DNA from: Akkermansiaceae bacterium
Lineage (GTDB): Bacteria > Verrucomicrobiota > Verrucomicrobiia > Verrucomicrobiales > Akkermansiaceae
NCBI GenBank assembly: GCA_903827375.1
Contig: CAIKHZ010000109.1
Location: 1-32,379 of the forward strand
Length of the DNA: 32,379 bases
Direction of reading: 5' to 3'
Part shown: one piece after another, positions 8,883 through 31,890 of the stretch
How the letters are laid out: every line of letters starts with the position of its first letter
Numbering within the stretch: position 1 is the first letter of the stretch
The notes under the pieces: model-generated
The model's input: only the letters and a program-made list of their open reading frames with translations
Told to the model about the DNA's origin: nothing
The model's database searches: none
Made by a program: the position numbers and the translations under genes

Positions 8883-11800
8883 TTGCCAGACTTTCCCCCC
8901 CTTACCGCCGTGCCAACCAACCAATCGTTTGTTAGAGCCCTCCTCGCCGCTCTCGCCCGCCTGTCCAGCCTGTTATTCGGTCAAATCTCATGGTCAGCTC
9001 CGCCATGGCTGGCTGGCTGCGGCCGTCGCCTGACAGCGTTGCGAGAGAGGGTCAAGGCCCATCCCCGCGCCGTCACGCTGAGCCTGTGTTTGCTGGTGGT
9101 GCTGGCCACCGGCGGTTGGCAGACATGGCGCTGGTGGGACTCGCACAAGCCCCGTACGTTTGCCTACAACGCATTGCGGGATGTTGCAGTGACGGCAGAA
9201 GCGCCCGCAGCAGTGGCTGCCGGCGCTCTAGACAAGGATCTAAAGCCGGGCCCGCTGCGGGTTAGGTTCGCCGGTGCGCCAGTCGCCCCGTTGGAGAAAA
9301 TCGGCAAGGACGCCGCGGAGGCGGTCAGTCTCACGCCCAAGACCCGCGGCAAATGGACCTGGCAAGACGGTTCCACGCTGGTGTTCCAACCAGAGGAACA
9401 TTGGCCGCCGGAGAGCCTCTTCACGGTGACCCTGCGGCCTGCGGCCTTGGCCGAGGGGCTCCACCTCGACAAGCCATCCCTAACCGTGAAGACAGCACCG
9501 TTTACCGCAGAGTTGGACGACTTTTCGTTCTATAACAGTCCGCAGGATGCCTCTGTCTATCAGGTTGTCGGCGAGCTCACACTCAGCCATCCGGTGGCGC
9601 TAAACGTCCTCCAACAGAAACTACGGTTGGAGGTGCTCGGTTCCACGCCCTTGTTCACGGCCGTCGGCCAGGGGACCCCGCTGTTCAGTGTGAGCGCCGA
9701 CCCGCTCTCCGCCCGGAGGTTTTTTGTTCGAAGTCGGCAGATCGCCGTGCCGCTCAAGGAGGACTGGGTAAAACTCACCGTGCCCGCCGGGCTGGTCTCC
9801 AGCTTGGTCGGCACTCCGTTGGCCAAGGATACGACGGCCAAGGCCCGCGTTCCTGACAAATTCAGCGGCTTGGAATTCACCGATGCCGAAACGAAAATCA
9901 TCCGCACCGACGAAGGCGAACCCCAACAATTTGTGCTCGTCACCACCAACCTCGATATCGACAGCGCCGAGGTCGCCAAGCACATCGGCCTGTGGTGGCA
10001 CAAGGGTACTTGGCTTGACTCAACCGGTAACCCCGCCTTTGCCAAGCTCGAGGACACTGCCACCAAAATCGAGCTGGTGCCGGTGGAAAACGAGGCACCT
10101 GCGGCCAAACAACATGCCTTCCGATTTATCGAACCGCGCACCAACGGGGGGCTGTGCCTGCGCGTCACACCAGGCGTGAAATCCCCCGGCGGATTCGAAA
10201 TCAACACCATCTCTGAGGAAATCCTACAGGTGCCGCCATTTCCCAAGGAAACCCGTCTGTTAGGAAAGGGCAACGTGCTGGCACTCGATGGCGAACGCAA
10301 GCTCATCGTCCAATCGCGTGGCATCGACCACCTGCGCATCACCCTCAGCCGAATCCCGGTATCCCAATTCCAACATCTCGTGTCGTTCAGCTATGGCAAA
10401 ATGGCCACCGAGACTCTGTCGAACTCCGCCATATCGGAGGACAACCTCGCCCAGAAATGGAGCCGGGTCGTCACCGTGGGGCGGCACAACGAGTGGGAGG
10501 CCATCCAATCGGTCATCGATATCTCGAAGGCCCCGCCACTCGTCACGCCGGAGCCACAACCCGGTGGCTGCGGCGTCTTCATTGTCACGGTCGAGCCCGT
10601 TAAAAAGAACAACATCAAAAAAGCTGGGGATGACATCTATTCGCGCATCGAGGAAGTCAGTGAAGCCAGGGGCGAACCATGGCACGAACAAGATAATCAG
10701 GAGTCCGACGATGCTCAGGACGGCTGGCGACGCTCCGAGGGCACGGTTTCCAAACGCCTCGTCATGGCGACCGACCTCGGGATGTTAGTGAAAGCCAGTG
10801 CCGACGGCTCTCGCGACGTCTATGTCATGGCCCTCGGTGCCGGCAAACCGGTGGCCGATGTGAAAATCCGCGCCTTGGCCTGCAATGGTACCGTGCTGGA
10901 GGCCACCCAAACCGACGCCACCGGCCACGCCCGCCTGGCCCCTTTCACGCATTGCACCGGCGAGCGCTTGCCGGTGGCGGTGCTGGCCACCAAAGGCGAC
11001 GATACCTCGTATCTGCCGCTCAACGAATACCAACTCCCTAACCTCGATTACTCGCGCTTCGAGGTGGAAGGCGTGCTCGCCTCGCGGATCAAGGCAGTGG
11101 AAGCTTTTGTCTTCACCGAACGCGGTGTCTATCGGCCCGGCGACACCCTCCACAGCGGCTTCATCGTGCGCCGCCACGACTGGCAACCCGTACTGGAAGG
11201 ATTGCCCCTCGCTATCATTCTAACTGATTCTCAAGGCCGGGATGTGGCCACCCAAAACACCCGCCTGCCATTCGATGGCTTCTTCGCCTGTGATTTTCCC
11301 CTGTCGGAAAGCGCCGCGCTCGGAACCTATCGGATCGCAGTGGACGTGCTCGACAGCGAGGGCAGACATCTGTTCCGCCTCGGCCGAGCCGCCATCCGGG
11401 TGGAGGAATTCCAACCGGACCGCATGAAAGTGAGTACCAAGCTCGACCCAGCGCCACCGGCCGGTTGGATCGATTGCAAGGCCACCGATGCGGTGGTGTC
11501 CGTGCAATCGCTTTTCGGTGAAGCCGCGCCGCAGCGCCGTGTGACCATGCGCCTCGAACTCTCACCCGCTGATTTTGGCTTCCCTCAATGGCCCAGCTTT
11601 ACTTTCTATATCGATAACGAAAAAGCCGAAAAATCTCTGGCCGGCCGCACCATCGACCTCGGCGAAACTCCTACCAATGACCAGGGCCTTGCAACCTTCA
11701 AATTGCCCTTCGACACCCTCAAGGATGCCACCTTCCGCGCCGCCGTCCTCACCGAAGCCTTCGAGCGCGAAGGAGGCCGCAGCGTGCGCAGCTCCTCCAC

Positions 11801-14800
11801 CTATCTCGTCTCGCCCTATGCCGCAGTGATCGGATGGAAGGCCGACGCCAAGCTCGACTACCTCGCCAAAGACAGCGGCAGCACACTCAAGTTGTTAGCA
11901 GTCGGACGCGATTTGAAACCCGTTGCACTCGACGGCCTGCGCCGCCGTCTCATTGAAATCCGCCAGGTTTCCGTCCTAACCAAACTCGATAACGGCAACT
12001 ATGCCTATGTTTCCACCCGAAAAGAACGCCAAATTGCCGAAGAACCGCTCAACTTGCCCGCCAGTGAAACGGACTATCAAATCCCGACCGCCAAGGCCGG
12101 AGATTTTCGAATGGAACTCATCGACGCCGACAGCGTGGTGCGTTGCGCCGTACCCTTCAGCGTAGTGGGTAAGGGCGATAACCACGCCAGCGTCGATCGC
12201 GAGGCCGAGCTTCGCATGCAGCTGTCCAAAGAGGAAGTCATGCCTGGCGGAGAAATCGAAGTGCATCTATCAGCGCCGTATGCCGGTGCCGGGCTGGTGA
12301 CCTTGGAGCGCGATCACGTGTTCGTTGCGCAGTGGTTCAAGACGACCACCAAGGAAAGCACGTTGACGATCAAGATTCCCGACGATGCCGAGGGGACCTA
12401 CTATATCAATGCGGCCTTTGTCCGCTCGACCTCCTCGCCCGAGGTGTTCCACAGTCCGCTGAGTTATGCCGCCGAGCCAGTGCGGGTGCTTGCCCCGAAA
12501 AAAACCCTGGCCTATCAACTCGACGCGCCGCGCGAGATCAGGCCGGGTAGTGAGGCCGTGTTTGGCATCACTTCTAACGAGCCGACGCGGTTGGTGATTT
12601 ACGCGGTGGACGAAGGGATTCACCAGATCACTTCCTACAAATTGCCGCAGCCTCTCGAGTTTTTCCTGCGCAAACAGGCGCTGGAAGTTCGCACCCAACA
12701 ATGGCTGGACCTGCTGCTGCCAGAGTACCGTTTTCTCAAAGGTGCCGCAGCCTTCGGTGGCGACGGCGATGCCGCACTCTCGCTGCACCTCAACCCGTTC
12801 AAACGCCGTCAGGAGCCTCCCGTTGTTTACTGGTCGGGTATCATCGATGCCGGCCCCAAACGCAGCGAGGTGAAATGGCAGGTGCCGGATTATTTCAACG
12901 GCAACCTGCGCATCATGGCGGTCGGCTGCAACGCCCGTGCCGTGGGAGCTACCGCCAGCGCCACCTTGGTCAAAGCGCCCATCATCGTGCAACCAAACGC
13001 GCCGTTGTTTGTCACACCCGGAGATGAATTCGAGGCCGCTGTCTCGGTCTTCAATCATCTGACTGTCGCCGGCGAGACGAAATTCCAGATCAGCGCCAGC
13101 GCCTCCGAGCATTTCGAAGTCATCGGCGCGGCCAGCACGTCGCTGGCGTTGGCCGACGGAAGTGAGGGCATCGCACGCTTCCGATTCCGAGCCAAGGACA
13201 AGCTCGGCGCAGCCGACTTGAAGTTCGAGGCCAGCGGCGGCGGCGAATCCGTCCGCCGCTCCACCACCCTGAGCGTTCGCCCAGCCACCCACCACCTCAC
13301 TAGCGTCACCACCGGCTGGTTCCGCAGCGGCTCGGCCGAGTTGAAGGTAAAACGCACTCTCTATCAGGAATACCGGCACACCGAGGTCACTGCCAGCATT
13401 GTGCCGCTGGGTCTTGCCCGCGGGCTGGAAGCCTACGTCCGCGAATACCCGTACGGGTGCTCAGAGCAAATAACCAGCCGCGCCATGGTCAAACTCATCG
13501 CCGCCACCGAGGCGGATTTCGCCATCGCCCCCAAGGATGCCGCTGCCGCCTTGACCTCTGCCATCAGCCAACTTGCCGCCCGCCAACGCGCAGACGGCGG
13601 ATTTGGCTATTGGTTTGCCGGTGCATCCTCGGATCTTGAATTCCACTCGCTCTATGTCCTGCACTTCCTGAGCGAAGCAAAATTGTTGGGCCACGCGCTG
13701 CCGGAACCCCTGCTGACTGGCGCTCTGAAATATGCGGCCCGCAGCGCCCGCGCCAATGTGAGTTCCATTGAAGATGCTGAGATGCAGGCGTATGCCATCT
13801 ATCTGTTGGCCCGCAACGGAACCAATCCCGCCCCTCAATTGCTCAACCTGCGAGATACCCTAACCGCAAAATTCAAGGGGCAATGGGAGTCCCGCGCCTC
13901 AGCCGCCTGGATGGCCGCCACTTATATGTTGCTCAAAAAGGACGCCGAAGCCAATAAATTGCTAGATGCCTGCATCCAGGCCAGAGCCGCCAATAAGGCT
14001 GCCAACAAGAGCGAACCCTGCTCCTACTACCGCACCCCGGCGATGGAGGACATCGGCATTTTCTACATCCAATGCCGCCATTTCCCCGAGCGTGCGAAGA
14101 AATTCGGGATCGAGGCGCTGGAACCGATCATGAAACCGCTGCGCGATCAAAGTTTCAACACGCTCGCCTGTTCTTACATGACGCTGGCCTTAAAAGCTTA
14201 TAGCGACCTGGCCCGCAGCACAGGCGTCGAGGTCTCCATTCTCGGCGCTGCGACCGGAAAACCCACCCCACAGCTGCTTGCAGGCCCCGGCCAAGGGATC
14301 CTTCATGCTACCTTCGACCCCGCCACCACTGCACTGCGTTTTGAGCGCCAACAAAAGGGCAATGGTGACATCGGCGCGTTCTATCAAGTCGTCGAGCAGG
14401 GCTACGACTCCGGCAAACCCACCGGTCCCGAGCGCAGTGGCCTCGAGGTTTCGCGCGAAATCTCCCCGCTGCACAAGGACCAGGCACTCCGTGCCGGCGA
14501 TCCGGTCGATGTGGTGCTGCGAGTGCGCAACGTATCTGGTCGAAATCTAACCAGCCTGGCGGTTGTTGATTTGCTGCCAGCCGGCTTTGAGGTGTTGGCC
14601 GGCGACTTGAAGTCTGGTGCCAACACAGTGCTAGGCACACAATTCGCCGAATTGCGCGAGGACCGCAGCCTGTTTTTCCTCGGCCTCAACGCCAACGCAG
14701 AGTGGTCCGTCAAGTATCGCATGAAAGCCGTCTGTGCCGGGTCCTTCGCTGTGCCAACTGCCATGGCCGAAGACATGTACGAGCGCGGCCTCCATGGCGT

Positions 14801-14840
14801 CTCCACTCCCGGGCGCATCACCATCGAGCCAGCCAAGTGA
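8883..14840 (+). CDS. Bacterial alpha-2-macroglobulin (thioester type)
   Basis: The protein has up to 1985 residues, somewhat longer than E. coli YfhM. A single N-terminal membrane anchor (residues about 63-80, core LSLCLLVVLATGGW) is followed by a large periplasmic region. An MG2-type segment (RGVYRPGDTLH) lies near 745 and the A2M domain (VYWSGIIDAGPKRSEVKW) near 1315. The thioester motif is intact: YPYGCSEQ with Cys1526-Ser-Glu-Gln1529, followed by the alpha-alpha barrel. The C-terminal segment ends AEDMYERGLHG...GRITI, as in relatives. Such proteins trap attacking proteases in the periplasm, often alongside penicillin-binding protein 1C; no pbpC is in this window. The start is uncertain: TTG 8883 and GTG 8910 are both possible, neither has a good ribosome-binding site, and no in-frame ATG precedes the membrane helix. 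Confidence 0.95.
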   Translation: MPDFPPLTAVPTNQSFVRALLAALARLSSLLFGQISWSAPPWLAGCGRRLTALRERVKAHPRAVTLSLCLLVVLATGGWQTWRWWDSHKPRTFAYNALRDVAVTAEAPAAVAAGALDKDLKPGPLRVRFAGAPVAPLEKIGKDAAEAVSLTPKTRGKWTWQDGSTLVFQPEEHWPPESLFTVTLRPAALAEGLHLDKPSLTVKTAPFTAELDDFSFYNSPQDASVYQVVGELTLSHPVALNVLQQKLRLEVLGSTPLFTAVGQGTPLFSVSADPLSARRFFVRSRQIAVPLKEDWVKLTVPAGLVSSLVGTPLAKDTTAKARVPDKFSGLEFTDAETKIIRTDEGEPQQFVLVTTNLDIDSAEVAKHIGLWWHKGTWLDSTGNPAFAKLEDTATKIELVPVENEAPAAKQHAFRFIEPRTNGGLCLRVTPGVKSPGGFEINTISEEILQVPPFPKETRLLGKGNVLALDGERKLIVQSRGIDHLRITLSRIPVSQFQHLVSFSYGKMATETLSNSAISEDNLAQKWSRVVTVGRHNEWEAIQSVIDISKAPPLVTPEPQPGGCGVFIVTVEPVKKNNIKKAGDDIYSRIEEVSEARGEPWHEQDNQESDDAQDGWRRSEGTVSKRLVMATDLGMLVKASADGSRDVYVMALGAGKPVADVKIRALACNGTVLEATQTDATGHARLAPFTHCTGERLPVAVLATKGDDTSYLPLNEYQLPNLDYSRFEVEGVLASRIKAVEAFVFTERGVYRPGDTLHSGFIVRRHDWQPVLEGLPLAIILTDSQGRDVATQNTRLPFDGFFACDFPLSESAALGTYRIAVDVLDSEGRHLFRLGRAAIRVEEFQPDRMKVSTKLDPAPPAGWIDCKATDAVVSVQSLFGEAAPQRRVTMRLELSPADFGFPQWPSFTFYIDNEKAEKSLAGRTIDLGETPTNDQGLATFKLPFDTLKDATFRAAVLTEAFEREGGRSVRSSSTYLVSPYAAVIGWKADAKLDYLAKDSGSTLKLLAVGRDLKPVALDGLRRRLIEIRQVSVLTKLDNGNYAYVSTRKERQIAEEPLNLPASETDYQIPTAKAGDFRMELIDADSVVRCAVPFSVVGKGDNHASVDREAELRMQLSKEEVMPGGEIEVHLSAPYAGAGLVTLERDHVFVAQWFKTTTKESTLTIKIPDDAEGTYYINAAFVRSTSSPEVFHSPLSYAAEPVRVLAPKKTLAYQLDAPREIRPGSEAVFGITSNEPTRLVIYAVDEGIHQITSYKLPQPLEFFLRKQALEVRTQQWLDLLLPEYRFLKGAAAFGGDGDAALSLHLNPFKRRQEPPVVYWSGIIDAGPKRSEVKWQVPDYFNGNLRIMAVGCNARAVGATASATLVKAPIIVQPNAPLFVTPGDEFEAAVSVFNHLTVAGETKFQISASASEHFEVIGAASTSLALADGSEGIARFRFRAKDKLGAADLKFEASGGGESVRRSTTLSVRPATHHLTSVTTGWFRSGSAELKVKRTLYQEYRHTEVTASIVPLGLARGLEAYVREYPYGCSEQITSRAMVKLIAATEADFAIAPKDAAAALTSAISQLAARQRADGGFGYWFAGASSDLEFHSLYVLHFLSEAKLLGHALPEPLLTGALKYAARSARANVSSIEDAEMQAYAIYLLARNGTNPAPQLLNLRDTLTAKFKGQWESRASAAWMAATYMLLKKDAEANKLLDACIQARAANKAANKSEPCSYYRTPAMEDIGIFYIQCRHFPERAKKFGIEALEPIMKPLRDQSFNTLACSYMTLALKAYSDLARSTGVEVSILGAATGKPTPQLLAGPGQGILHATFDPATTALRFERQQKGNGDIGAFYQVVEQGYDSGKPTGPERSGLEVSREISPLHKDQALRAGDPVDVVLRVRNVSGRNLTSLAVVDLLPAGFEVLAGDLKSGANTVLGTQFAELREDRSLFFLGLNANAEWSVKYRMKAVCAGSFAVPTAMAEDMYERGLHGVSTPGRITIEPAK

Positions 14841-16200: not shown

Positions 16201-17661
16201 TCAGGCCAGAATGGGCTGGATCAATTCGCCGTGGACGTCGGTAAGCCGCATGTCTCGGCCTGAAAATCGCACGGTGAGCCTTTTATGGTCGATGCCCAAT
16301 AGATGCAGCATGGTGGCGTGCAGATCATGGATGGAGCACTTGTTTTCAACGGCCTTGTATCCGTATTCATCGGTGGAGCCATGGATTGTCCCACCCTTGA
16401 CTCCGCCCCCCGCCAGCCAGATCGAGTAACCAAAGGGATTGTGATCGCGTCCATCGCTGCCTTGAGCAAACGGAGTCCGGCCAAATTCGCTGGCCCAAAC
16501 CACCAGCGTCTGATCCAACAAGCCGCGTGACTTCAGATCCTTGAGCAACCCGGCAATGGGCTGATCCACGGCTAGGGCGTTCGCTTCATGCCCACGCTTC
16601 AGGTCACCGTGCTGGTCCCATCGGTCATTTCCATTCACGACCGGACAGGTGAGTTCAATAAACCGAACGCCACGTTCCACCAATCGACGGGCCACCAAGC
16701 ATTGGGCGCCGAAGGTGCGTGTGGATGAGTTCTGCGAATCCACTCCGTAAAGGTTTCGGGTTGCTTCCGATTCGCCCTTCAGATCCATCAGATCCGGCAC
16801 CGCCGACTGCATGCGGAAGGCGAGTTCATAGTTTGAAATGGCTGACTCTAACTGATCGAGTCGACCATTTCGGACGAGTCTCTCCTGATCGAGTTTGTGC
16901 ATCAAGGCAAGTTTGTTTTGCTGCAGAGCGGAGTTAGCTTCGGCGGGAGATATGTTGGCAACCGGGTTGGCTCCAGTTCGAAAAATGGACCCCTGATAGG
17001 CCGAAGGCAGAAATCCGTTGCCAAAATTTTCCAGCCCGCCCGGCGGAATCAAGCCGCCATTGAGCACGACAAAGCCCGGGAGGTTTTGGTTCTCGCTGCC
17101 CAGACCATAGCCGACCCAGGCACCCATGCTTGGACGGCCTGAGAGGCCGAGACCGGTGTGGAGGAAATAGTTTGCGTTGGTGTGCTCGGAGAAATCCGAA
17201 GTCATCGAGCGGATGAGTGCCAAATCGTCGGCGCACTGGCCGATATGGGGGAACAGGTCACTGATGGGCATTCCACATTGGCCATAGTTCTTGAACTGCC
17301 ACGGGCTAGCAAGGACGTTGCCGATGTTGTTGAACTGGGTCGGCTCCGTCTTCATCTTGAATGGCTTGCCATGTTCCTTGGTCAAGCGCGGCTTGGGGTC
17401 AAACGAATCAACCTGAGAAACCCCGCCATCCATGTAGAGAAAGATGATGTTGCGAGCCTTGGGTGGAGCCTGTGGAGGACGCGCAGCCCAGGGCGCGGTA
17501 CCCGGATCTCCAGTGGCTTTCAACGTCTCGCCAAAGGCCTTGTCGCCGAGCAGACCCCAGAGAGCCACCCCTCCAAAGCCGCTGGCGGCACGCTGAAGCA
17601 TCTCGCGCCTGGTCAATGGCGGTCGCAAAAAATTTCTGCAATGGTGTTGGATCGGACTCAT
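16201..17661 (-). CDS. DUF1501 family protein with Tat signal
   Basis: The start is taken at ATG 17661 (MSPIQHHCRNFLRPPLTRRE), giving 486 residues; an upstream ATG at 17730 would overlap the previous gene. The N-terminus carries a twin-arginine signal (LTRREMLQRAASGFGG, Arg18-Arg19), as is common in this family. The body matches DUF1501 (PF07394), which has an alkaline-phosphatase/sulfatase-like fold: IIFLYMDGGVSQVDSFDP, ASEFGRTP and GRDHNPFGYSIWLAGGG are the hallmark segments. The biochemical activity of DUF1501 proteins is not established. The gene begins 11 bases after the stop of the PSCyt1/DUF1549/DUF1553 gene, the standard partnership in Planctomycetota and Verrucomicrobiota. The pair is almost certainly one operon. 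Confidence 0.93.
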   Translation of the reverse strand: MSPIQHHCRNFLRPPLTRREMLQRAASGFGGVALWGLLGDKAFGETLKATGDPGTAPWAARPPQAPPKARNIIFLYMDGGVSQVDSFDPKPRLTKEHGKPFKMKTEPTQFNNIGNVLASPWQFKNYGQCGMPISDLFPHIGQCADDLALIRSMTSDFSEHTNANYFLHTGLGLSGRPSMGAWVGYGLGSENQNLPGFVVLNGGLIPPGGLENFGNGFLPSAYQGSIFRTGANPVANISPAEANSALQQNKLALMHKLDQERLVRNGRLDQLESAISNYELAFRMQSAVPDLMDLKGESEATRNLYGVDSQNSSTRTFGAQCLVARRLVERGVRFIELTCPVVNGNDRWDQHGDLKRGHEANALAVDQPIAGLLKDLKSRGLLDQTLVVWASEFGRTPFAQGSDGRDHNPFGYSIWLAGGGVKGGTIHGSTDEYGYKAVENKCSIHDLHATMLHLLGIDHKRLTVRFSGRDMRLTDVHGELIQPILA

Positions 17662-17672
17662 CGTTGAGCGGT

Positions 17673-20600
17673 TCAATTCAGGAAAATAAATTCTTTCACA
17701 TTCATCAAGACGTGACACAGGTCCGCCCAAAGTCTCGGATCAGTATCAGCCTGCTGCGGCTTGAGATGATACGCAAGTGCCTGCTGATGCAAGAAATCCA
17801 TCGCTGCGAGTCCTTCATTGGCTAGCGGCGGGCGACTGAAGATTGTCTCATACATCAGGGCGATGCGCTCCTCGGGCGTAAGTTGCTTGTTAGCCAAGAG
17901 CCGGTTGGCCCAGGCGCTGGCCTCGCTGAGGACGAAAGGATCGTTCATGAGGACGAGCGATTGGGCTGGCACATTGGAGGCTGTGCGACGGCCAATGGTG
18001 GTGTATGGCACGGGGAAATCAAAGGCCCGCATCATCGGGGGAAGAAAATTGCGCCGCACCTCCTGATAGATGCTGCGCCGCCCTGCTCCATCGAGAGGGC
18101 CGCATTGGCCGGGGCGGCCGCGGCCTTCCATGAATGCGGTCAGAAACACCGGCACCGGAGGTCCAAACATGGCAGGATTCATTTGGCCTGAGACAGCCAG
18201 AATGGCATCGCGAATGGCCTCGCCCTCAAGCCTCCGCAAAGGCATCCGATGCAACAGCAGATCCTGTGGATCCTTTTCCTCAGCACCGGGGTCCGCAGGG
18301 TTGCTAGACATGCGATAGGTTTGCGAAGTCATCAGGAGGCGGATCAGCTTCTTGTTCGACCAGCCCCCCTTGGTGCGGTACCAATCGGCTAACCAGTCCA
18401 GCAACTCAGGATGGGTCGGTGCCTGCCCGAGAGCACCGAAGTCATCCGGCGTGGCGACAATGCCGCGGCCAAAGAGGTGTTGCCAGATGCGGTTGACCAT
18501 GACGCGGGAGAGGAAGGGATTGGATGGATCTGTCATGCACTTGGACAATTCAAGGCGACCGCTGCCGCTGGTGAAGCGGTTGTTTTCCGAGCCGCCCAAG
18601 GCCTCCAGAAAGCGGCGGGGCACGACCTCGCCCAAGGATTTATGGCTGCCACGGATAAAGACATTCTCGTCCACCGGGCTGCCATCGATCATTGCTAGAA
18701 CCCTCTGTTGCTCGGGCAAAGCTTCCTCGAGTTTGTGGAATCGCGCCAACGCCTCCACCAGTTGCCGACTTGATGGCTCCTCGGATGGAGTGAAATCTAA
18801 CAAATTCTTGCGCAGCATCCAGTTGAGCCACTCGATTTGTGATGCGGAAACCTTTGAGCCGTCTTTAGCACACCACGCTTCAACGGCCTTAACGGTGGTG
18901 GCCTGATATAGCATGGCCAACTCGGCTGCCGATCCGATCCGGGCCAACTCGCCACCTTCCATCAGCGCAGGCCGGATGGCGTCCACCGGTGCCTGCGGCT
19001 GGTCGGAGAAAACCGCCCGGCTAACCACCACGTAGGCACGAGAGTCATACTTGTGATCCGGCGTTTCGGTTGGATCCGGGGTGGGCAGATCGTTGAATTC
19101 CAGATAGGCCCGATGGCCTTTCCAAGTATTGAGATCAAGGGTTATCCAGCTGAGTTCCTCTTTGTCGAGCATTCGCCGCAAGGAGTCGTAGATCGGGGCG
19201 ACGATCATGGTGAAGTTATCGATTCGAACATTGAGGCGGGAATGCTGGCCTGCTAGCAAAATGTGCAGATAGCGCTTGTGGATCGTGAATGTGGGGGAGC
19301 GCAAAACGCCTTCCAGACGGCGGGAGATGGCAGCGCTACTGGCCGAGGGTTCACGCAGGAGGGTCGTAACGGGCTGTTTCATATCACCGACGGCGAAGTC
19401 ACCGACGGGAGCGGGAGCGGTTCCGAACGCGGCATCTTCGACTGACCAACCGGCGAAATCAGGACCGTCAAAAGCGGCAAATATCTCGTCGCTGGGTCTC
19501 GGGGCCGCCGGATGAGAAGCATTCAAGGCTGCCAGCACGGCAGGCAGGCGGTCGCGGAACTGCGGCTCTTTGGATTGAGGGTCGGCGGCAAGTGCAGACC
19601 AGGCGAAGAGAGGATTTGCGGGTGCTTGCGCTGGCTTCTCCAGCAAGACCTTCGTCCATGAGTTGAGCCGCGCAGCGTCCAAATGCCGTTCTGTAGCCAC
19701 TGCATCGGCCGGAGTGCCGATGGGATCGGTGGGGGGGCCTTTTGCCACTCCGGCGGCCGTCTGCAGGTATTCCGCCACACCAGCCGCCTGTTGCTGCCAG
19801 GCCTGCCCGATGAGCGGACGCAATTCCTTTTTGAGGCTGGCAAGGGCGGCCACCTGGGGCTGCAATTTCTGACGCGGATAGGTGGAACCTTGAGTGTAGC
19901 GAGAACTTCCCATCACCCCAAAAAGCGAGTAATAATCTTTGCTGGAGATGGCATCGAACTTGTGATCGTGGCAACGCGCACACGCCACAGTCAGCCCCAA
20001 AAAGGTCTTGCTGGTCACATCAATCTGATTGTCCACCACCACCGACTCCTCGGCGCGGACATCGACAGGTGAGTGCACCCGCTGCCCCATCCAATAAAAG
20101 CCGGTGCCAATGATCGACTCGTTGAATCCTTCGGCGGGATCGAGGCGGGGCTTTGGCAGCAGATCGCCGGCAATCTGTTCGGTGACGAATTGGTCATAGG
20201 GTAAATCGGCATTGAATGCCCGGATCACATAGTCGCGATAGCGCCAAGCATTGAAATTAGCAAAGTCAAACTCGTGCCCTAGGGTCTCCGCATAGCGAAC
20301 CAGATCCAACCAATGGCGGGCCCAACGCTCGCCGAATTGGGGCGAGGCCAACAAGCGGTCGAGCACATCCTCATAGGCATTGGGCGAGGAATCCTTGAGA
20401 AATGCCTCAACTTCAGCAGGCGAAGGCGGCAGCCCTATCAAATCAAAATAGGCGCGGCGGATCAAGGTACGGCGGTCCGCAGCAGTCGCGGGTTTCAGGC
20501 CTGCCTCATCCAGCTTGGCCAGAATAAATCGGTCAGGCTCGGTGGCGGGCCAGCGGTCATCATGGACGACAGGGAGGGCTTGAGGGCGGATCGGTTGCCA

Positions 20601-21092
20601 GGCCCAGTGGGCTTCGCGGCGTTTCGTGAGGTCGAAGGCGGAGAGCTTGCCTGCCACGGCACCAACGGTGCTGTTGGGCCAAGGTGCCCCCATGTTCACC
20701 CAGGCCGTTAGATCGGCGATCTCGGAGTCCGCCAGCTTTTTCTTGGGCGGCATCTGCAGGTCAATGTTGGCGTGGCCCACTGCCTCGATCAACAAGCTCT
20801 TGGCGGCATCACCCGGCACGATGGCGGCCCGGGTATCGCCACCCTTCAACAGGCCATCCCGCGAATCCATCTGTAGCCCGCCTTTGATCTTATCGCCGGT
20901 GCTGCTGTGACATTTGTAGCAGCGCTCGACGAGCAGCGGGCGGATCTTTCTCTCAAACAATTCCACCCCTTCTGGAGCCAACGCCAGGTCTCCGGCGATC
21001 GAACAAATGCTCGGAAGCCACAGCCATACGGCCAGCAGCAAGTGGATCTGCCACAGCCACCCCGAGGATCGATGAGTGCCTTGCTTGGTCAT
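17673..21092 (-). CDS. PSCyt1-DUF1549-DUF1553 planctomycete cytochrome c protein
   Basis: The preferred start is ATG 21092 (MTKQGTHRSSGWLWQ), because the hydrophobic export segment follows directly; ATG 21146 is an alternative. The 1139-residue protein has a PSCyt1 domain (about 40-130) with haem motif CYKCH at 58-62 and the typical PPKKKLADSEIADLTAWV. DUF1549/PSCyt2 follows (about 175-385), including VACARCHDHKFDAI near residue 370, a second CxxCH. A middle region (about 560-700) contains a lectin- or LamG-like stretch. DUF1553/PSD1 (about 845-1100) carries NPFLSRVMVNRIWQHLFGRG. The protein is exported and probably binds c-type haem. Suggested roles for such proteins include polysaccharide breakdown, but no reaction has been proven to my knowledge. 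The downstream DUF1501 partner is in the same operon. Confidence 0.94.
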   Translation of the reverse strand: MTKQGTHRSSGWLWQIHLLLAVWLWLPSICSIAGDLALAPEGVELFERKIRPLLVERCYKCHSSTGDKIKGGLQMDSRDGLLKGGDTRAAIVPGDAAKSLLIEAVGHANIDLQMPPKKKLADSEIADLTAWVNMGAPWPNSTVGAVAGKLSAFDLTKRREAHWAWQPIRPQALPVVHDDRWPATEPDRFILAKLDEAGLKPATAADRRTLIRRAYFDLIGLPPSPAEVEAFLKDSSPNAYEDVLDRLLASPQFGERWARHWLDLVRYAETLGHEFDFANFNAWRYRDYVIRAFNADLPYDQFVTEQIAGDLLPKPRLDPAEGFNESIIGTGFYWMGQRVHSPVDVRAEESVVVDNQIDVTSKTFLGLTVACARCHDHKFDAISSKDYYSLFGVMGSSRYTQGSTYPRQKLQPQVAALASLKKELRPLIGQAWQQQAAGVAEYLQTAAGVAKGPPTDPIGTPADAVATERHLDAARLNSWTKVLLEKPAQAPANPLFAWSALAADPQSKEPQFRDRLPAVLAALNASHPAAPRPSDEIFAAFDGPDFAGWSVEDAAFGTAPAPVGDFAVGDMKQPVTTLLREPSASSAAISRRLEGVLRSPTFTIHKRYLHILLAGQHSRLNVRIDNFTMIVAPIYDSLRRMLDKEELSWITLDLNTWKGHRAYLEFNDLPTPDPTETPDHKYDSRAYVVVSRAVFSDQPQAPVDAIRPALMEGGELARIGSAAELAMLYQATTVKAVEAWCAKDGSKVSASQIEWLNWMLRKNLLDFTPSEEPSSRQLVEALARFHKLEEALPEQQRVLAMIDGSPVDENVFIRGSHKSLGEVVPRRFLEALGGSENNRFTSGSGRLELSKCMTDPSNPFLSRVMVNRIWQHLFGRGIVATPDDFGALGQAPTHPELLDWLADWYRTKGGWSNKKLIRLLMTSQTYRMSSNPADPGAEEKDPQDLLLHRMPLRRLEGEAIRDAILAVSGQMNPAMFGPPVPVFLTAFMEGRGRPGQCGPLDGAGRRSIYQEVRRNFLPPMMRAFDFPVPYTTIGRRTASNVPAQSLVLMNDPFVLSEASAWANRLLANKQLTPEERIALMYETIFSRPPLANEGLAAMDFLHQQALAYHLKPQQADTDPRLWADLCHVLMNVKEFIFLN

Positions 21093-21169
21093 GTCAGTTT
21101 TTTGGGGATCCTCAGGCCAGAGGCAATCAACCATACGGCATCCCATCCACTATTTTTCCATTCAAAAGT

Positions 21170-28842: not shown

Positions 28843-31800
28843 ATGAACCTTCGACGCCTCCATCGGACCACAGGTGCAGCCATCCTGCTCGGCTCTCTCA
28901 GCCTGGCCACTGCCGCTCCTCTGCACTTTGATTTTGAAACCGGCGATCTCCAAGGCTGGAAAGTCGTCGAAGGTTCGTTTGTCCGGGTCGTCACCGACCG
29001 ACCGGAATATCATAACAAAGGGGCCTATGCCTCGCGCCAAGGCAAGTTCCATCTATCCACCGTCGAAGGTCCTAACGATTCATCCGCAGACACCCAGCGC
29101 GGTGTCATCGAGTCGCCGGTATTCCTGTTGGATGCTCCGGATGTTTCCTTCCTCATCGGCGGCGGCTCGCATCCAGACACTTATGTGGCTCTGTGCACAC
29201 TCGACGGCAAGGAACTGGTGCAGGCCCGCGGCAAAAATTCCGAAGTCATGGAGCGGGTGCAATGGAACCTCCCGCAGTGCATCGCCAAGCCAGTGTTTCT
29301 GCGGGTCTTCGACGGCAACGCCGGCAGCTGGGGACACGTCACTCTCGATGATGTGACCGCCAGCGGCCACATCGACCCCGAGGCCAGCGCCACCCACTTC
29401 GCCAAGCGCAAGCGGGTCCTAACACCCCAACCGGGATCGGCCTGCCCGGTATCTATCGACGCCCTGCGCTCCGCCGTCGAAGACCTCAATGCCACCTTCG
29501 CCGAGCGCTACCCCGATGGTGCCCAATTCATCAAGGAACTCGACGCCCTCCAACAAGCCGCCGATGACGCCTCAGCGGATCAGGCCGATGTAGCCGCCAA
29601 GCTCGCCGACCTGCAGCAGCGGGCTCTGTTAGCCAATCCACTGCTCCGCTCCCAACCCCTGGTGTTCGTCGCAAGACCCCAATATGTAGCCATCTATCAT
29701 GCCATCGACACCCTCTTCCAAGTCGGCGAGGCCACCGAGGGCAAGTTCACTCCCGGCGGCGCTCTCAAACTCCTGGACACCACCACCGGCACCACCCGCA
29801 CTCTGGTCGATACCCCGTTAGGCACCGTGCGCAGCCCCTGCGTCCACTTCGACGCCAAGAAAATCCTCTTTGCCATGCGCCGACACGCGAAGGAAAATTT
29901 CCACATCTACGAGATTCATGCCGATGGCAGCGAGCTCAAGCAACTCACCTTTGCGGCGGGCGTCAGTGACTTTGATCCCATCTATCTGCCGGACGGTGGG
30001 ATCGTGTTTTCCTCCACCCGCGAGCCGAAGTTCAATATGTGCAGCCAGGACATCGGAGCCAACCTCTTCCGCATGGATGGCGATGGATCTAACATCCTTC
30101 AAATCACCAAAAGCACACTCTTCGAAAACCAGGCCGGGCTGATGCCAGACGGCCGCATCGTGTACAAGCGCTGGGAATACGTGGACCGCAACTTTGGCGA
30201 CGCCCACGGCTTCTGGACCGTCAACCCGGATGGCACCCAGCAGTCGATTTTGTGGGGCAACAACAAAGCCGATCCCGCTGCCGTGTATTACCCGCGGCTC
30301 ATCCCGGACACCTGGCAACTTCTGTGCATCCTCAGCACCCATCACCAGAACATGTGGGGAGCGCTAGCCATCATCGACCCCAGCCTGGACACCGACCGCA
30401 ACGCGTCGATCCTCCGCACCTGGCCGGCAGGTGTGCGTGCCACGCTCCGCGATAGTGATAACTTCGATTGCGACCGCCTCGGCAGCGTCAACCCCAAGTA
30501 TGAGGATCCGTGGCCGTTGAGCAGCAAGTATTTCCTCTGCTCCCGCAGTGATCCGCAACACCAGATGGGCATCTATCTGCTCGACGTGTTCGGCAACGAG
30601 ATACGCGTCCACGCCGAAGCCCCGGGCTGCTTCGGCGCCATGCCTCTCGCCCCAACGCCCCGCCCACCGGTCTCCCCACAACGCCGCAATTTCACCAACG
30701 CCAGCGGCCTGATGTACGTGAGCGACGTCTATCAGGGGACCCACATGCAGGGCGTCAAGCGCGGTGCCGTCAAAAAACTCCGCGTCGTCGAATCACCCGA
30801 AAAACGCGCATGGACCGATGGCAAATGGTATGGCCAGGGGTTCCAGGCTCCCGGCATGAACTGGCACGACTTCACCGCCAAACGCATCCTCGGCACTGTG
30901 CCGGTGGAAGAAGACGGCAGCGCCTATTTCTCAGTGCCCGCCAATACCTTCGTGTTTTTCCAGCTGCTCGATGAAAACGACATGATGATCCAGTCGATGC
31001 GCAGTGGCACCGTCGTCCAGCCCGGCGAACAAACCGGCTGCGTCGGTTGCCACGACAACCGGCTCGCAGCGCCGCCGCCATCACTGGTCGTGCCGCTGGC
31101 GCTGCGCCGAGAGCCGAGCACACTGACACCTTGGTACGGGCCGCTGCGTTCGTTCAGTTTCATGGCCGAAGTACAACCGGTGTTAGATAAGTATTGTGTG
31201 AAGTGCCATGACTTCGGTAAACCAGCCGGCCAAAAACTTCTGCTCGCTGGCGACCGCGATCCATTTTTCAATGCTGCCTACACCGAGATGTGGCGCAAGC
31301 ATGCGATCAAGCCCATCGGTGCCGGTCCCGCCGGCATCCAACAGCCCTACGCTTGGGGCGCCCATCCCAGTCCCCTCGTCAAAGTCATCCGCGAAGGCCA
31401 CCCCACTGGCAAGGGCCCGGGCCTCGACAAACTCACCCTCGACAAGGAAAGCTTCGACCGCATCGTCACTTGGATCGACATCAACGCCCCTTACTACCCA
31501 ACATACGATAGCGCCTATCCGGACAACCCCGCCGGCCGTTCACCCCTAACCGGTGAACAACTCTCCCGCCTCAGCGCCCTGACCGGTGCCCCCTGCGCTC
31601 AGGACAACTTCGCCACGAGCACCGGCCCATGGCTCAGCTTCGACCGCCCGGAACTCTCCCCTGCCCTTGCCAAGCTCGATAAGAATTCCCCGCAATACAC
31701 CGAGGCCCTAGCCCTCCTGCAAAGCGGTCACGACGCCCTAACCAAAAAGCCTCGAGGCGACACTTTGGATTTCACGCCTTGTTCCAAAGACCGCCAGCGC

Positions 31801-31890
31801 GAAGACTTCTATCGCCAGCGCCAGCAAATCGAACTCTCCAACCGGGAAGCCATCCGCGACGGCAAAAAACTCCGCGAGGCAGCGGAATAA
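28843..31890 (+). CDS. Hydrazine-synthase-alpha-like diheme protein
   Basis: The start is ATG 28843 (MNLRRLHRTTGAAILLGSLS), directly before a signal peptide; an in-frame extension to 28486 runs through the aminopeptidase gene and is rejected. The protein has 1015 residues. Residues about 25-170 are a beta-sandwich (FDFETGDLQGWKVVEGSF). Residues about 270-620 form a TolB/PD40-like propeller (EIHADGSELKQLTF, LPDGGIVFSSTREP). The middle-to-C-terminal part resembles the HzsA family: VPVEEDGSAYFSVPANTFVF, then haem motif CVGCH at 733-737 and a second, CVKCH, at 785-789 preceded by VQPVLDKY. HzsA in anammox bacteria makes hydrazine, but homologues elsewhere have no proven role and nothing nearby suggests anammox. 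The protein is predicted exported. An 81-residue membrane protein follows after 14 bases. Confidence 0.88.
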   Translation: MNLRRLHRTTGAAILLGSLSLATAAPLHFDFETGDLQGWKVVEGSFVRVVTDRPEYHNKGAYASRQGKFHLSTVEGPNDSSADTQRGVIESPVFLLDAPDVSFLIGGGSHPDTYVALCTLDGKELVQARGKNSEVMERVQWNLPQCIAKPVFLRVFDGNAGSWGHVTLDDVTASGHIDPEASATHFAKRKRVLTPQPGSACPVSIDALRSAVEDLNATFAERYPDGAQFIKELDALQQAADDASADQADVAAKLADLQQRALLANPLLRSQPLVFVARPQYVAIYHAIDTLFQVGEATEGKFTPGGALKLLDTTTGTTRTLVDTPLGTVRSPCVHFDAKKILFAMRRHAKENFHIYEIHADGSELKQLTFAAGVSDFDPIYLPDGGIVFSSTREPKFNMCSQDIGANLFRMDGDGSNILQITKSTLFENQAGLMPDGRIVYKRWEYVDRNFGDAHGFWTVNPDGTQQSILWGNNKADPAAVYYPRLIPDTWQLLCILSTHHQNMWGALAIIDPSLDTDRNASILRTWPAGVRATLRDSDNFDCDRLGSVNPKYEDPWPLSSKYFLCSRSDPQHQMGIYLLDVFGNEIRVHAEAPGCFGAMPLAPTPRPPVSPQRRNFTNASGLMYVSDVYQGTHMQGVKRGAVKKLRVVESPEKRAWTDGKWYGQGFQAPGMNWHDFTAKRILGTVPVEEDGSAYFSVPANTFVFFQLLDENDMMIQSMRSGTVVQPGEQTGCVGCHDNRLAAPPPSLVVPLALRREPSTLTPWYGPLRSFSFMAEVQPVLDKYCVKCHDFGKPAGQKLLLAGDRDPFFNAAYTEMWRKHAIKPIGAGPAGIQQPYAWGAHPSPLVKVIREGHPTGKGPGLDKLTLDKESFDRIVTWIDINAPYYPTYDSAYPDNPAGRSPLTGEQLSRLSALTGAPCAQDNFATSTGPWLSFDRPELSPALAKLDKNSPQYTEALALLQSGHDALTKKPRGDTLDFTPCSKDRQREDFYRQRQQIELSNREAIRDGKKLREAAE

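Follow-up and report, generated by a model that had tools for sequence, protein, structure and literature searches.

Hydrazine synthase is a biochemically unusual enzyme, the origin of which is debated. In the window analyzed here, namely the entire 32,379-nucleotide contig C109 of a lake-dwelling Akkermansiaceae bacterium, the initial annotation described an HzsA-like protein in a non-anammox setting, and it left the choice between nitrogen redox chemistry and carbohydrate oxidation to further study. Both the homology to HzsA and the setting proved right. The question is what an alpha-type subunit of hydrazine synthase (HZS), hereafter P0001, could be doing in such a genome (completeness 96%).

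Gene and domain organization of P0001

The reading frame of P0001 starts with ATG at 28843, comprises 1015 codons and ends at 31890 (Table 1). HZS_alpha was the only Pfam domain detected at E ≤ 0.001 (E = 7.9 × 10−37, 126 bits, cut-off 26.6), and 5c2v_A was the sole sequence match in the PDB at E ≤ 0.1 (E = 4.9 × 10−13). The protein contained two CxxCH motifs, with 0.006 expected from its composition, and they lie exactly where the initial annotation had placed them. The AlphaFold2 model had a pLDDT of 88.2 and a pTM of 0.81; residues 1–8 and 10–22 had a pLDDT below 50 and fall in the region of the probable signal peptide, which was assigned by eye, without a predictor. Homology was detected between the N-terminal sandwich and the N-terminal module of a GH32 protein encoded beside paralog L017_4 (E = 7 × 10−16, 29% over 151 aa). 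The small membrane protein reported 3′ of the gene was present as well, and no evidence was found tying it to the HZS-like system.

Table 1. Features of the P0001 locus, with positions in the window.
Feature	Position	Strand	Basis
HZS-alpha-like dihaem protein P0001, 1015 aa	28843..31890	+	Pfam, PDB sequence search, AlphaFold2 model, structural match
Probable signal peptide, residues 1–25	28843..28917	+	By eye: basic start, hydrophobic core, AxA-like end
N-terminal beta-sandwich, residues 27–177	28921..29373	+	Model and homology to GH32 neighbour of L017_4
Helical linker, residues 179–269	29377..29649	+	AlphaFold2 model
TolB/HzsA-type beta-propeller, residues about 270–606	29650..30660	+	Model and structural match
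HZS_alpha middle domain (PF18582), residues 641–738	30763..31056	+	Pfam
Haem alphaI site CVGCH, residues 733–737; His737 aligned with HzsA His587	31039..31053	+	Motif and alignment
Haem alphaII site CVKCH, residues 785–789; His789 aligned with HzsA His689	31195..31209	+	Motif and alignment
His853; its counterpart in HzsA is His772, the distal haem alphaII ligand	31399..31401	+	Alignment
C-terminal helical extension, residues about 935–1005	31645..31857	+	AlphaFold2 model
Small two-helix membrane protein, 81 aa, 3′ of P0001	31905..32150	+	ORF list

Comparison with HzsA and TolB

The best structural match of the P0001 model was, by far, HzsA (Z = 33.5, rmsd 2.9 Å, 568 residues), with residues 271–975 of the model aligned to residues 57–807 of the HzsA chain. 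As in HzsA (PDB 5c2v, NCBIfam NF052339), the propeller is followed by the HZS_alpha middle domain and the C-terminal cytochrome domain, which agrees with the domain order proposed in the initial annotation, except that the N-terminal sandwich is an extra element without an aligned counterpart in HzsA. The haem alphaI CxxCH motif is present, and the bis-His ligands of haem alphaII, His689 and His772, are retained at the sequence level as His789 and His853. The superposition on HzsA proposed earlier showed a kept fold. In contrast to HzsA, P0001 sits outside any hzsBC cluster, shares only 17–22% identity with it and lacks Tyr591 and Cys303. In the 164-row alignment, the Tyr591 column contained Tyr in 9/9 anammox HzsA sequences and in 0/155 others, and the same proportions were obtained for Cys in the Cys303 column, where P0001 has Asn; position +4 after His737 is occupied by Leu. 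Tyr591 is reported as the proximal ligand of haem alphaI in HzsA (PMC12607021), and the Cys303 Zn site as not conserved in every anammox bacterium (PMC12758564). It should be noted that in L148, a paired alpha, a Tyr lies four residues past the alphaI His, in a spacing of its own. Loss of the catalytic haem environment, which the initial annotation had named as one outcome that would speak against its reading, was consequently found in the aligned residues as far as Tyr591 and Cys303 are concerned, whereas the haem alphaII ligands and the fold were kept.

P0001 reached 64.6 bits with the NCBIfam HzsA equivalog model (cut-off 800) and 30.4 bits with the TolB model (cut-off 343), below the cut-off in both cases. 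Identification as a true HzsA was ruled out, because Tyr591 and Cys303 are absent, the score is far from 800 bits and no HAO-family gene was found in the genome (PF13447, 0 matches; the two anammox-type genomes serving as positive control gave 14 and 12). Identification as TolB was also ruled out: E. coli TolB was the next structural match (Z = 25.8 over 277 residues), limited to the propeller. The resemblance of the propeller to TolB, together with lectin-like modules in some alphas, would fit a non-catalytic surface or sensor scaffold in which propeller and sandwich bind glycans and the haems are structural or signalling; this is nonetheless quite unlikely, given that the alphaI His was invariant in 164/164 aligned sequences, the alphaII ligands were nearly so and the alphas are linked to catabolic genes.

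Alpha and beta-gamma genes in the genome

The genome encodes 33 HZS-alpha copies, P0001 included, all above the Pfam cut-off, and since so many occur in a single genome here, matches to the HZS_alpha domain are not evidence of anammox. The haem alphaI motif was present in 33/33 copies, the alphaII motif in 32/33, and the His772 equivalent was kept in 32/33. Accessory domains comprised FGE-sulfatase (6/33) as well as NPCBM, laminin-G and 3-keto-disaccharide hydrolase (one copy each). Cytochrome c assembly genes were also present. Genes beyond the window were called with our own codon-usage or longest-frame scripts rather than a standard gene finder.

The earlier statement that no other anammox-type subunit lies nearby is true of the window, where the beta-gamma profile gave only partial propeller matches (607–1356, best E = 2.5 × 10−10), all within a phosphoesterase-propeller gene 27 kb from P0001. 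In the rest of the genome, however, the search for HzsB/HzsC-like genes suggested by the initial annotation revealed two HzsBC-like (beta-gamma) genes, C306:31021-32739 (E = 1.5 × 10−223) and C229:56060-57832 (E = 1.4 × 10−190), both directly upstream of another alpha gene. A structural model of the beta-gamma protein had low confidence in its gamma portion (pLDDT < 50 over 403–473 and 518–567) and was excluded from use. The gamma residues His144, Cys165 and Asp168 were found in 0/37 non-anammox beta-gamma sequences and were missing from both genes of this genome; these counts are based on 37 non-anammox and 5 anammox rows, after a truncated protein without CxxCH (L080) had been dropped.

The HzsA fold, the two haems and the presence of HzsBC-like genes would be compatible with an enzyme that, like HzsA, forms or processes hydrazine, hydroxylamine or nitric oxide, and a Rid/chorismatase-like gene, found in 12/39 non-anammox beta-gamma loci examined, could hint at imine chemistry. 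Set against the missing residues of both the alpha and gamma parts, the lack of an HAO-family match and the carbohydrate context, such a nitrogen-redox function appears very improbable.

Co-occurrence, natural fusions and phylogeny

In the first phylum sample (194 genomes of the host phylum), an alpha was found in 37 genomes, a beta-gamma in 39 and both in 36 (Fisher p = 1.7 × 10−34, genome relatedness being ignored here and below), the exceptions being three genomes with a beta-gamma and no alpha and one with the reverse; alpha counts per genome in this sample are lower bounds, as 24 candidates were scored per genome. At the genus level, a beta-gamma occurred in all 16 alpha genera and in 18/107 genera overall, and genus g2 comprised 10 genomes with both, 7 with neither and 0 discordant. 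In the second phylum sample (199 genomes), the corresponding numbers were 38, 19 and 15 (p = 2.7 × 10−9), with four genomes having a beta-gamma without an alpha and 23 of the 38 alpha genomes having no beta-gamma at the threshold used. These 23 include nine of anammox type, in which unfused subunits score lower, and several others with weak partial matches; in G312 and G322, a strong alpha lies on a short contig and a beta-gamma is absent. In the single-pair genome G035, alpha and beta-gamma are about 290 kb apart. Two natural fusions were identified: L143 (2497-11832, 3111 aa) combines an alpha (966–1693) with a beta-gamma (2302–2886), and L163 (4542-8705, 1387 aa) contains PF18582 and CCP_MauG in one protein. 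In L161, a beta-gamma was listed by the profile search, yet no beta-gamma gene was called.

A beta-gamma was present in 10/80 ortholog loci of P0001 (a called gene was obtained from 78/80, with none from L067 and L074, and 74/80, 700–1100 aa in length, were used further), and the P0001 subfamily includes paired alphas, namely L009_3 of the same genome as well as L049, L055 and L058. These data bear on whether the alphas are stand-alone periplasmic cytochromes, electron-transfer or carbohydrate-linked, with the beta-gamma pairing only with the one or two alphas adjacent to it. Given 33 alphas and two beta-gammas, it is just as conceivable that the majority of alphas work without a beta-gamma: 31/33 have none adjacent, P0001 is solitary, many alphas bear accessory domains of their own, and the 23 alpha genomes of the second sample point the same way. 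Nevertheless, 36/37 alpha genomes of the first sample, many-alpha ones included, have a beta-gamma, and paired alphas occur within the P0001 subfamily itself, so that the stand-alone reading is considered rather unlikely, though a serious contender.

Phylogenetic analysis (132/134 and 163/164 rows kept in the trees; all 164 used for residue counts) placed, in the 163-row tree, the nine HzsA sequences on a long branch (1.00), apart from the 154 others, among which the L156/L157 type splits first; the root was placed on HzsA by choice, which sets the direction of branching. A position of P0001 beside anammox HzsA was not seen. A purely recent, lineage-specific expansion of the alphas is not favoured, because a number of the 33 group in the tree with sequences from other phyla (for example, L026_3 with L109, L036_10 with L177 and L035_4 with L176). 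Some copies are nevertheless sisters within the genome (L010_5 and L011_1, as well as L014_8 and L023_1). The two sets of 20 regions each were hand-chosen, not random.

Gene neighbourhoods

Many glycoside hydrolases were found among the neighbours of alphas (104 genes encoding ≥100 aa and located at most two genes from an alpha; first 25 of 173 families listed). The background consisted of 104 shuffled genes from 20 other contigs picked at even steps (first 25 of 248 families listed), and the enrichment is not a full count, since it covers the listed families. Of the five lactonase-like SGL genes above the cut-off, three are no further than 4.2 kb from an alpha (p = 9 × 10−4 under random placement), and these three are mutually related. 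For DUF1080, 5/16 unfused copies lie within 8 kb of an alpha (p = 0.009, tandem copies not being independent). Across phyla, an operon of DhaK, DhaL and an LsrF-type aldolase is joined to an alpha: it occurs at L018 of the same genome and in two records of Hydrogenedentes (L049 and L057), where the cluster holds both a P0001 ortholog and a beta-gamma. Directly beside P0001, neither a beta-gamma nor a sugar gene was found; its upstream neighbours encode a UvrD helicase and an M29 peptidase, in an order identical to that in L040 (96% identical), while L041 (82% ortholog) has a GH2 gene directly upstream. Between the two substrate classes considered initially, the genomic context suggests carbohydrate rather than nitrogen.

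Proposed role

P0001 is interpreted, with a probability of about 0.5, as a dihaem c-type cytochrome located outside the cytoplasm that forms the alpha subunit of an HZS-like, non-anammox redox system for the breakdown of carbohydrates, one in which numerous alphas go with a small number of beta-gamma cores. In such a system, alpha and beta-gamma would form a complex, and P0001, itself an orphan, would rely on a beta-gamma from another locus. Haem alphaI would be His-ligated and may be where the reaction takes place or electrons enter, haem alphaII would relay electrons, and exchange with the MauG/CCP-like dihaem gamma part could run in either direction. The propeller and the N-terminal sandwich would direct the protein to a carbohydrate-derived substrate, and separate alpha copies would serve separate substrates, sharing one or two beta-gamma cores. 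If the alphas do share a beta-gamma, the system would represent a modular haem enzyme of an unusual kind, linked to the use of glycans.

More tentatively, and with greater doubt, Verrucomicrobiota and Planctomycetota may use an HZS-fold system for sugar chemistry, in which one conserved beta-gamma core (propeller and MauG-like dihaem) would serve up to dozens of interchangeable glycan-targeted alphas and a Rid/chorismatase-like enzyme would handle the product. Anammox HZS would then be a specialised offshoot, the alpha haem of which gained a Tyr ligand and Zn, and small-genome relatives in the same family, probably gut Akkermansia, would have a version with one beta-gamma and usually one alpha. 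A large non-anammox alpha/beta-gamma system, as indicated by co-occurrence, fusions and metabolic context, provides a plausible setting for hydrazine synthase and a function that can be tested.

Relation to known systems

HZS homologs outside anammox bacteria are already published; the alpha expansion, the co-occurrence of alpha and beta-gamma and the sugar context were not found in the literature searched. With PF18582, two CxxCH motifs and no Tyr591, P0001 itself falls among the HZS_alpha-domain proteins outside anammox. The system resembles the non-anammox homologs of clades I–IV (Hagglund et al. 2025, PMC12758564), for which an alpha beside a fused beta-gamma and lost catalytic residues are described. 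L156 and L157 fit the description given there of Opitutus terrae (an alpha with one haem motif, an FG-GAP gene and a beta-gamma with four extra haem motifs). As a difference, the Trp at the His144 position reported there for clades I–III was present in 9/37 beta-gamma rows. Unlike clade I of that study, in which the His772 equivalent is reported missing, the P0001 clade keeps this residue, and, unlike the homologs described there, the beta-gamma partners of this genome and of G2 have two CxxCH motifs only and the alphas are strongly multiplied. An alpha adjoining a fused beta-gamma is likewise described, in PMC10732223, for hzs-like genes of Oslofjord Planctomycetota and KSB1 MAGs, and its authors already propose that the enzyme family is broader and acts on other substrates. 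Phycisphaerae sets are read there as possible anammox, whereas here neither the key residues nor an HAO-family match was found.

The PSCyt1/2/PSD1 proteins of freshwater Verrucomicrobia, as presented in PMC5615132, are similarly multi-copy cytochromes with carbohydrate-binding modules and nearby glycan genes, but they belong to other Pfam families, none of which matches P0001. Membership of P0001 in the PSCyt family was rejected, no PSCyt1, PSCyt2 or PSD1 domain being found in it. Elsewhere in the window, a PSCyt gene adjoins a DUF1501 gene.

Similarity of P0001 to HzsA

The dihaem protein P0001 contained HZS_alpha (residues 641–738, E = 7.9e-37) as its sole Pfam domain, and its sole sequence relative in the PDB (E <= 0.1) was HzsA of anammox hydrazine synthase (HZS) (5c2v_A, E = 4.9e-13); the score against the NCBIfam HzsA equivalog (64.6 bits) was below the cut-off of 800. 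The profile of the genome's 33 alpha (HzsA-like, PF18582) copies retrieved HzsA first from the PDB (E = 8.3e-55), ahead of TolB-type propellers, which began at 7e-11. The AlphaFold2 model of P0001 (75 sequences; pLDDT 88.2, pTM 0.81) matched two HzsA chains at Foldseek ranks 1 and 2 (E = 3.2e-28 and 5.0e-28; TolB next, 3.8e-9), and VIA-align superposed residues 271–975 on HzsA (Z = 33.5, rmsd 2.9 Å, 568 residues). The HzsA likeness proposed in the initial annotation was thus borne out by the PDB sequence search, Foldseek and VIA-align; the N-terminal sandwich (residues 27–177), which had been counted as part of the HzsA order, lay outside the match. A module homologous to this sandwich (29% identity, 151 residues, E = 7e-16) stands at the N-terminus of the protein encoded next to another alpha copy of the genome, L017_4, and PF00251 (E = 3.8e-51) marks that protein as a glycoside hydrolase of family 32.

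Positions of the gene of P0001, of the alpha–beta-gamma fusions and of other genes in the window
Feature	Sequence	Positions	Strand	Description
P0001 gene	window	28843-31890	+	1015 aa, N-terminus MNLRRLHRTTGAAILLGSLSLATAA
Alpha–beta-gamma fusion	L143	2497-11832	+	3111 aa, one open frame, four CxxCH
Alpha–beta-gamma fusion	L163	4542-8705	-	1387 aa, one open frame, four CxxCH
PSCyt1/PSCyt2/PSD1 protein adjoining DUF1501 protein	window	16201-21134	-	1153 aa (PSCyt1/PSCyt2/PSD1 protein); Pfam
Bacterial alpha-2-macroglobulin-like protein	window	9096-14840	+	1914 aa

Haem Sites and Copy Number of Alpha

In HzsA, according to PMC12607021, haem alphaI has Tyr591 as a ligand, His587 holds zinc, and haem alphaII is bis-His; PMC12758564 names Cys303 as a further ligand of zinc and assigns the distal position at haem alphaII to His772. 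In the alignment of nine anammox-type HzsA (second phylum sample) and 155 non-anammox alphas, the His587 column held His in 164/164 sequences, while the Tyr591 and Cys303 columns held Tyr and Cys, respectively, in 9/9 anammox HzsA and in 0/155 non-anammox alphas. The His772 equivalent was found in 9/9 anammox proteins, 32/33 alphas of the genome and 70/78 orthologs. Since Tyr591 and Cys303 are lost and His772 is mostly kept, haem alphaII looks conserved in the non-anammox alphas, judging from the alignment, and the special alphaI arrangement of HzsA is missing. The catalytic haem environment, on which the initial annotation had made the HzsA-like reading depend, is thus lost from P0001 at the sequence level. 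The non-anammox alpha L148 had Tyr four residues past the alphaI His, with its own spacing, and seven others had Tyr elsewhere within 8 residues of His, all outside the aligned Tyr591 column.

The genome in which the window is one contig, C109 (6.11 Mb, 370 contigs, 96% complete), had 33 PF18582 matches, all above the cut-off; 14 control genomes had 0. The alphaI motif was present in 33/33 copies and the alphaII motif in 32/33. The closest orthologs of P0001, L040 (96%) and L041 (82%), were both from Akkermansiaceae, and the genome of the former had 31 PF18582 matches; the window's genome is thus probably that of a lake bacterium in this family of Verrucomicrobiota. An FGE-sulfatase domain was added in 6/33 copies, and F5/8-type, NPCBM, laminin-G, rhamnosidase-N and 3-keto-disaccharide hydrolase domains in one or two each. 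Locus L173 had two alphas within one 1780-aa frame.

The Proposed Beta-Gamma Partner

A search of the genome for HzsB/HzsC-like genes revealed two full HzsBC-like (beta-gamma) genes, each directly upstream of an alpha copy, as well as weaker partial matches. The family gene (~610 aa) was near an alpha in 10/80 ortholog loci (two cut by contig ends). Its top NCBIfam match was hydrazine_BC (E = 1.1e-47), yet far below the 1250-bit cut-off, and a profile of eight members matched the 5c2v subunits HzsB at E = 1.1e-44 and HzsC at 2.6e-37, ranked after a surface-layer propeller. HzsC Cys165, His144 and Asp168 were absent from 37/37 non-anammox gamma parts, and the Glu122 position held Asp in 35 and Ser in two. 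In 33/37, a Cys preceded the first gammaI haem Cys by 7 residues (L049:10532-12343, residue 403, and equivalents); anammox HzsC lacked it and had the extra Cys165 instead.

In 18 hand-picked regions with a called beta-gamma gene, alpha was fused in one, adjoining in 10 (including L160, with a broken alpha gene), separated by one gene in three and not close in four. The two fusions, from genomes of the two phylum samples, combined HZS_alpha, a lactonase-type propeller and CCP_MauG (L163), and HZS_alpha and FGE-sulfatase (L143, alpha part scanned). Such natural fusion is the strongest sign of alpha and beta-gamma acting together.

In the first phylum sample (194 genomes from the phylum of the window; beta-gamma E <= 1e-50), alpha was found in 37 genomes, beta-gamma in 39 and both in 36; alpha alone occurred in G026 only, and beta-gamma alone in G086, G087 and G091. 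All 16 alpha genera had beta-gamma, found in 18/107 genera. Within g2, a genus in the window's family (2.2–3.3 Mb genomes) and probably Akkermansia, 10 genomes had both and seven neither (Fisher p = 1.7e-34 overall and 5e-5 within g2, kinship ignored). The second sample (199 genomes; centre G194, Planctomycetota) gave 38, 19 and 15, respectively (p = 2.7e-9). Beta-gamma had 1–3 matches per genome; for alpha the count ranged from one to 24 or more in the sample and reached 33 in the window's genome. As an alternative, the alphas may act independently of beta-gamma. In a joint system, one beta-gamma would be common to many alphas, which is the boldest step.

G9, a Rid/chorismatase-like family (chorismatase FkbO/Hyg5 in NCBIfam, E = 3.1e-17; Ribonuc_L-PSP in Pfam, E = 4.7e-11), was found in 12/39 non-anammox beta-gamma loci (e.g., L049:12395-13528), directly next to beta-gamma in 10/12 (exceptions L064 and L182), and in 1/123 other non-anammox loci (L090, adjoining an alpha; p = 9e-8, loci non-random). 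It was not found at the loci of the two beta-gamma genes of the window's genome. In L144:4900-11311, L145:6362-12776 and L153:3320-9817, from small-genome relatives in the window's family, probably Akkermansia, alpha, a three-CxxCH beta-gamma and a Rid/chorismatase-like gene stood side by side.

Genomic Context and Proposed Role

The 104 neighbours of the 33 alphas were compared with 104 genes from other contigs by their 25 most frequent families. The former included rhamnosidases (six-hairpin type, GH106), GH32, GH95, GH43, sialate-type esterases, SGL, 3-keto-disaccharide hydrolase and xylose-isomerase-like barrels; the latter included Mur ligases, regulators and transporters, with the chitobiase C-terminal domain (2) as the sole glycan-linked entry besides an esterase (SASA) in the first member. 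Gfo/Idh dehydrogenases were in both. Three of the five SGL genes above the cut-off in the genome, mutually related, lay within 4.2 kb of an alpha. A cross-phylum operon combined alpha, DhaK, DhaL, two small families that matched nothing in the family search, one presumably VOC-like, and an aldolase clearing the LsrF cut-off of 297 bits (scores 442 and 456). It was found at L018 (window's genome) and, in Hydrogenedentes, at L049 and L057, in the same gene run as a P0001 ortholog, beta-gamma and G9. Its 189–241-aa family also occurred at alpha or beta-gamma loci L036 (gene 3), L071 (gene 2) and L159 (gene 6), where DhaK was not found. The HAO family (PF13447) had 0 matches in the window's genome; two genomes of anammox type had 14 and 12. 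Cytochrome c assembly had three matches in the window's genome.

The best-supported reading is that P0001 is the alpha subunit of a redox system that resembles HZS, has no hydrazine role and serves carbohydrate catabolism. In this system alpha and beta-gamma would form a complex, with a putative electron path, and the substrate may be carbohydrate-linked. PMC12758564 already describes homologs of alpha and beta-gamma outside anammox that have lost residues, and calls those of alpha few; PMC10732223 suggests a wider HZS enzyme family, and PMC5615132 ties other multi-copy cytochromes of lake Verrucomicrobia to carbohydrates. Neither a large alpha expansion nor a shared beta-gamma or an Akkermansia pair appeared in the titles and abstract openings searched in the open literature. 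The PSCyt1/PSCyt2/PSD1 gene represents a second multi-copy PVC cytochrome type on the contig of P0001.
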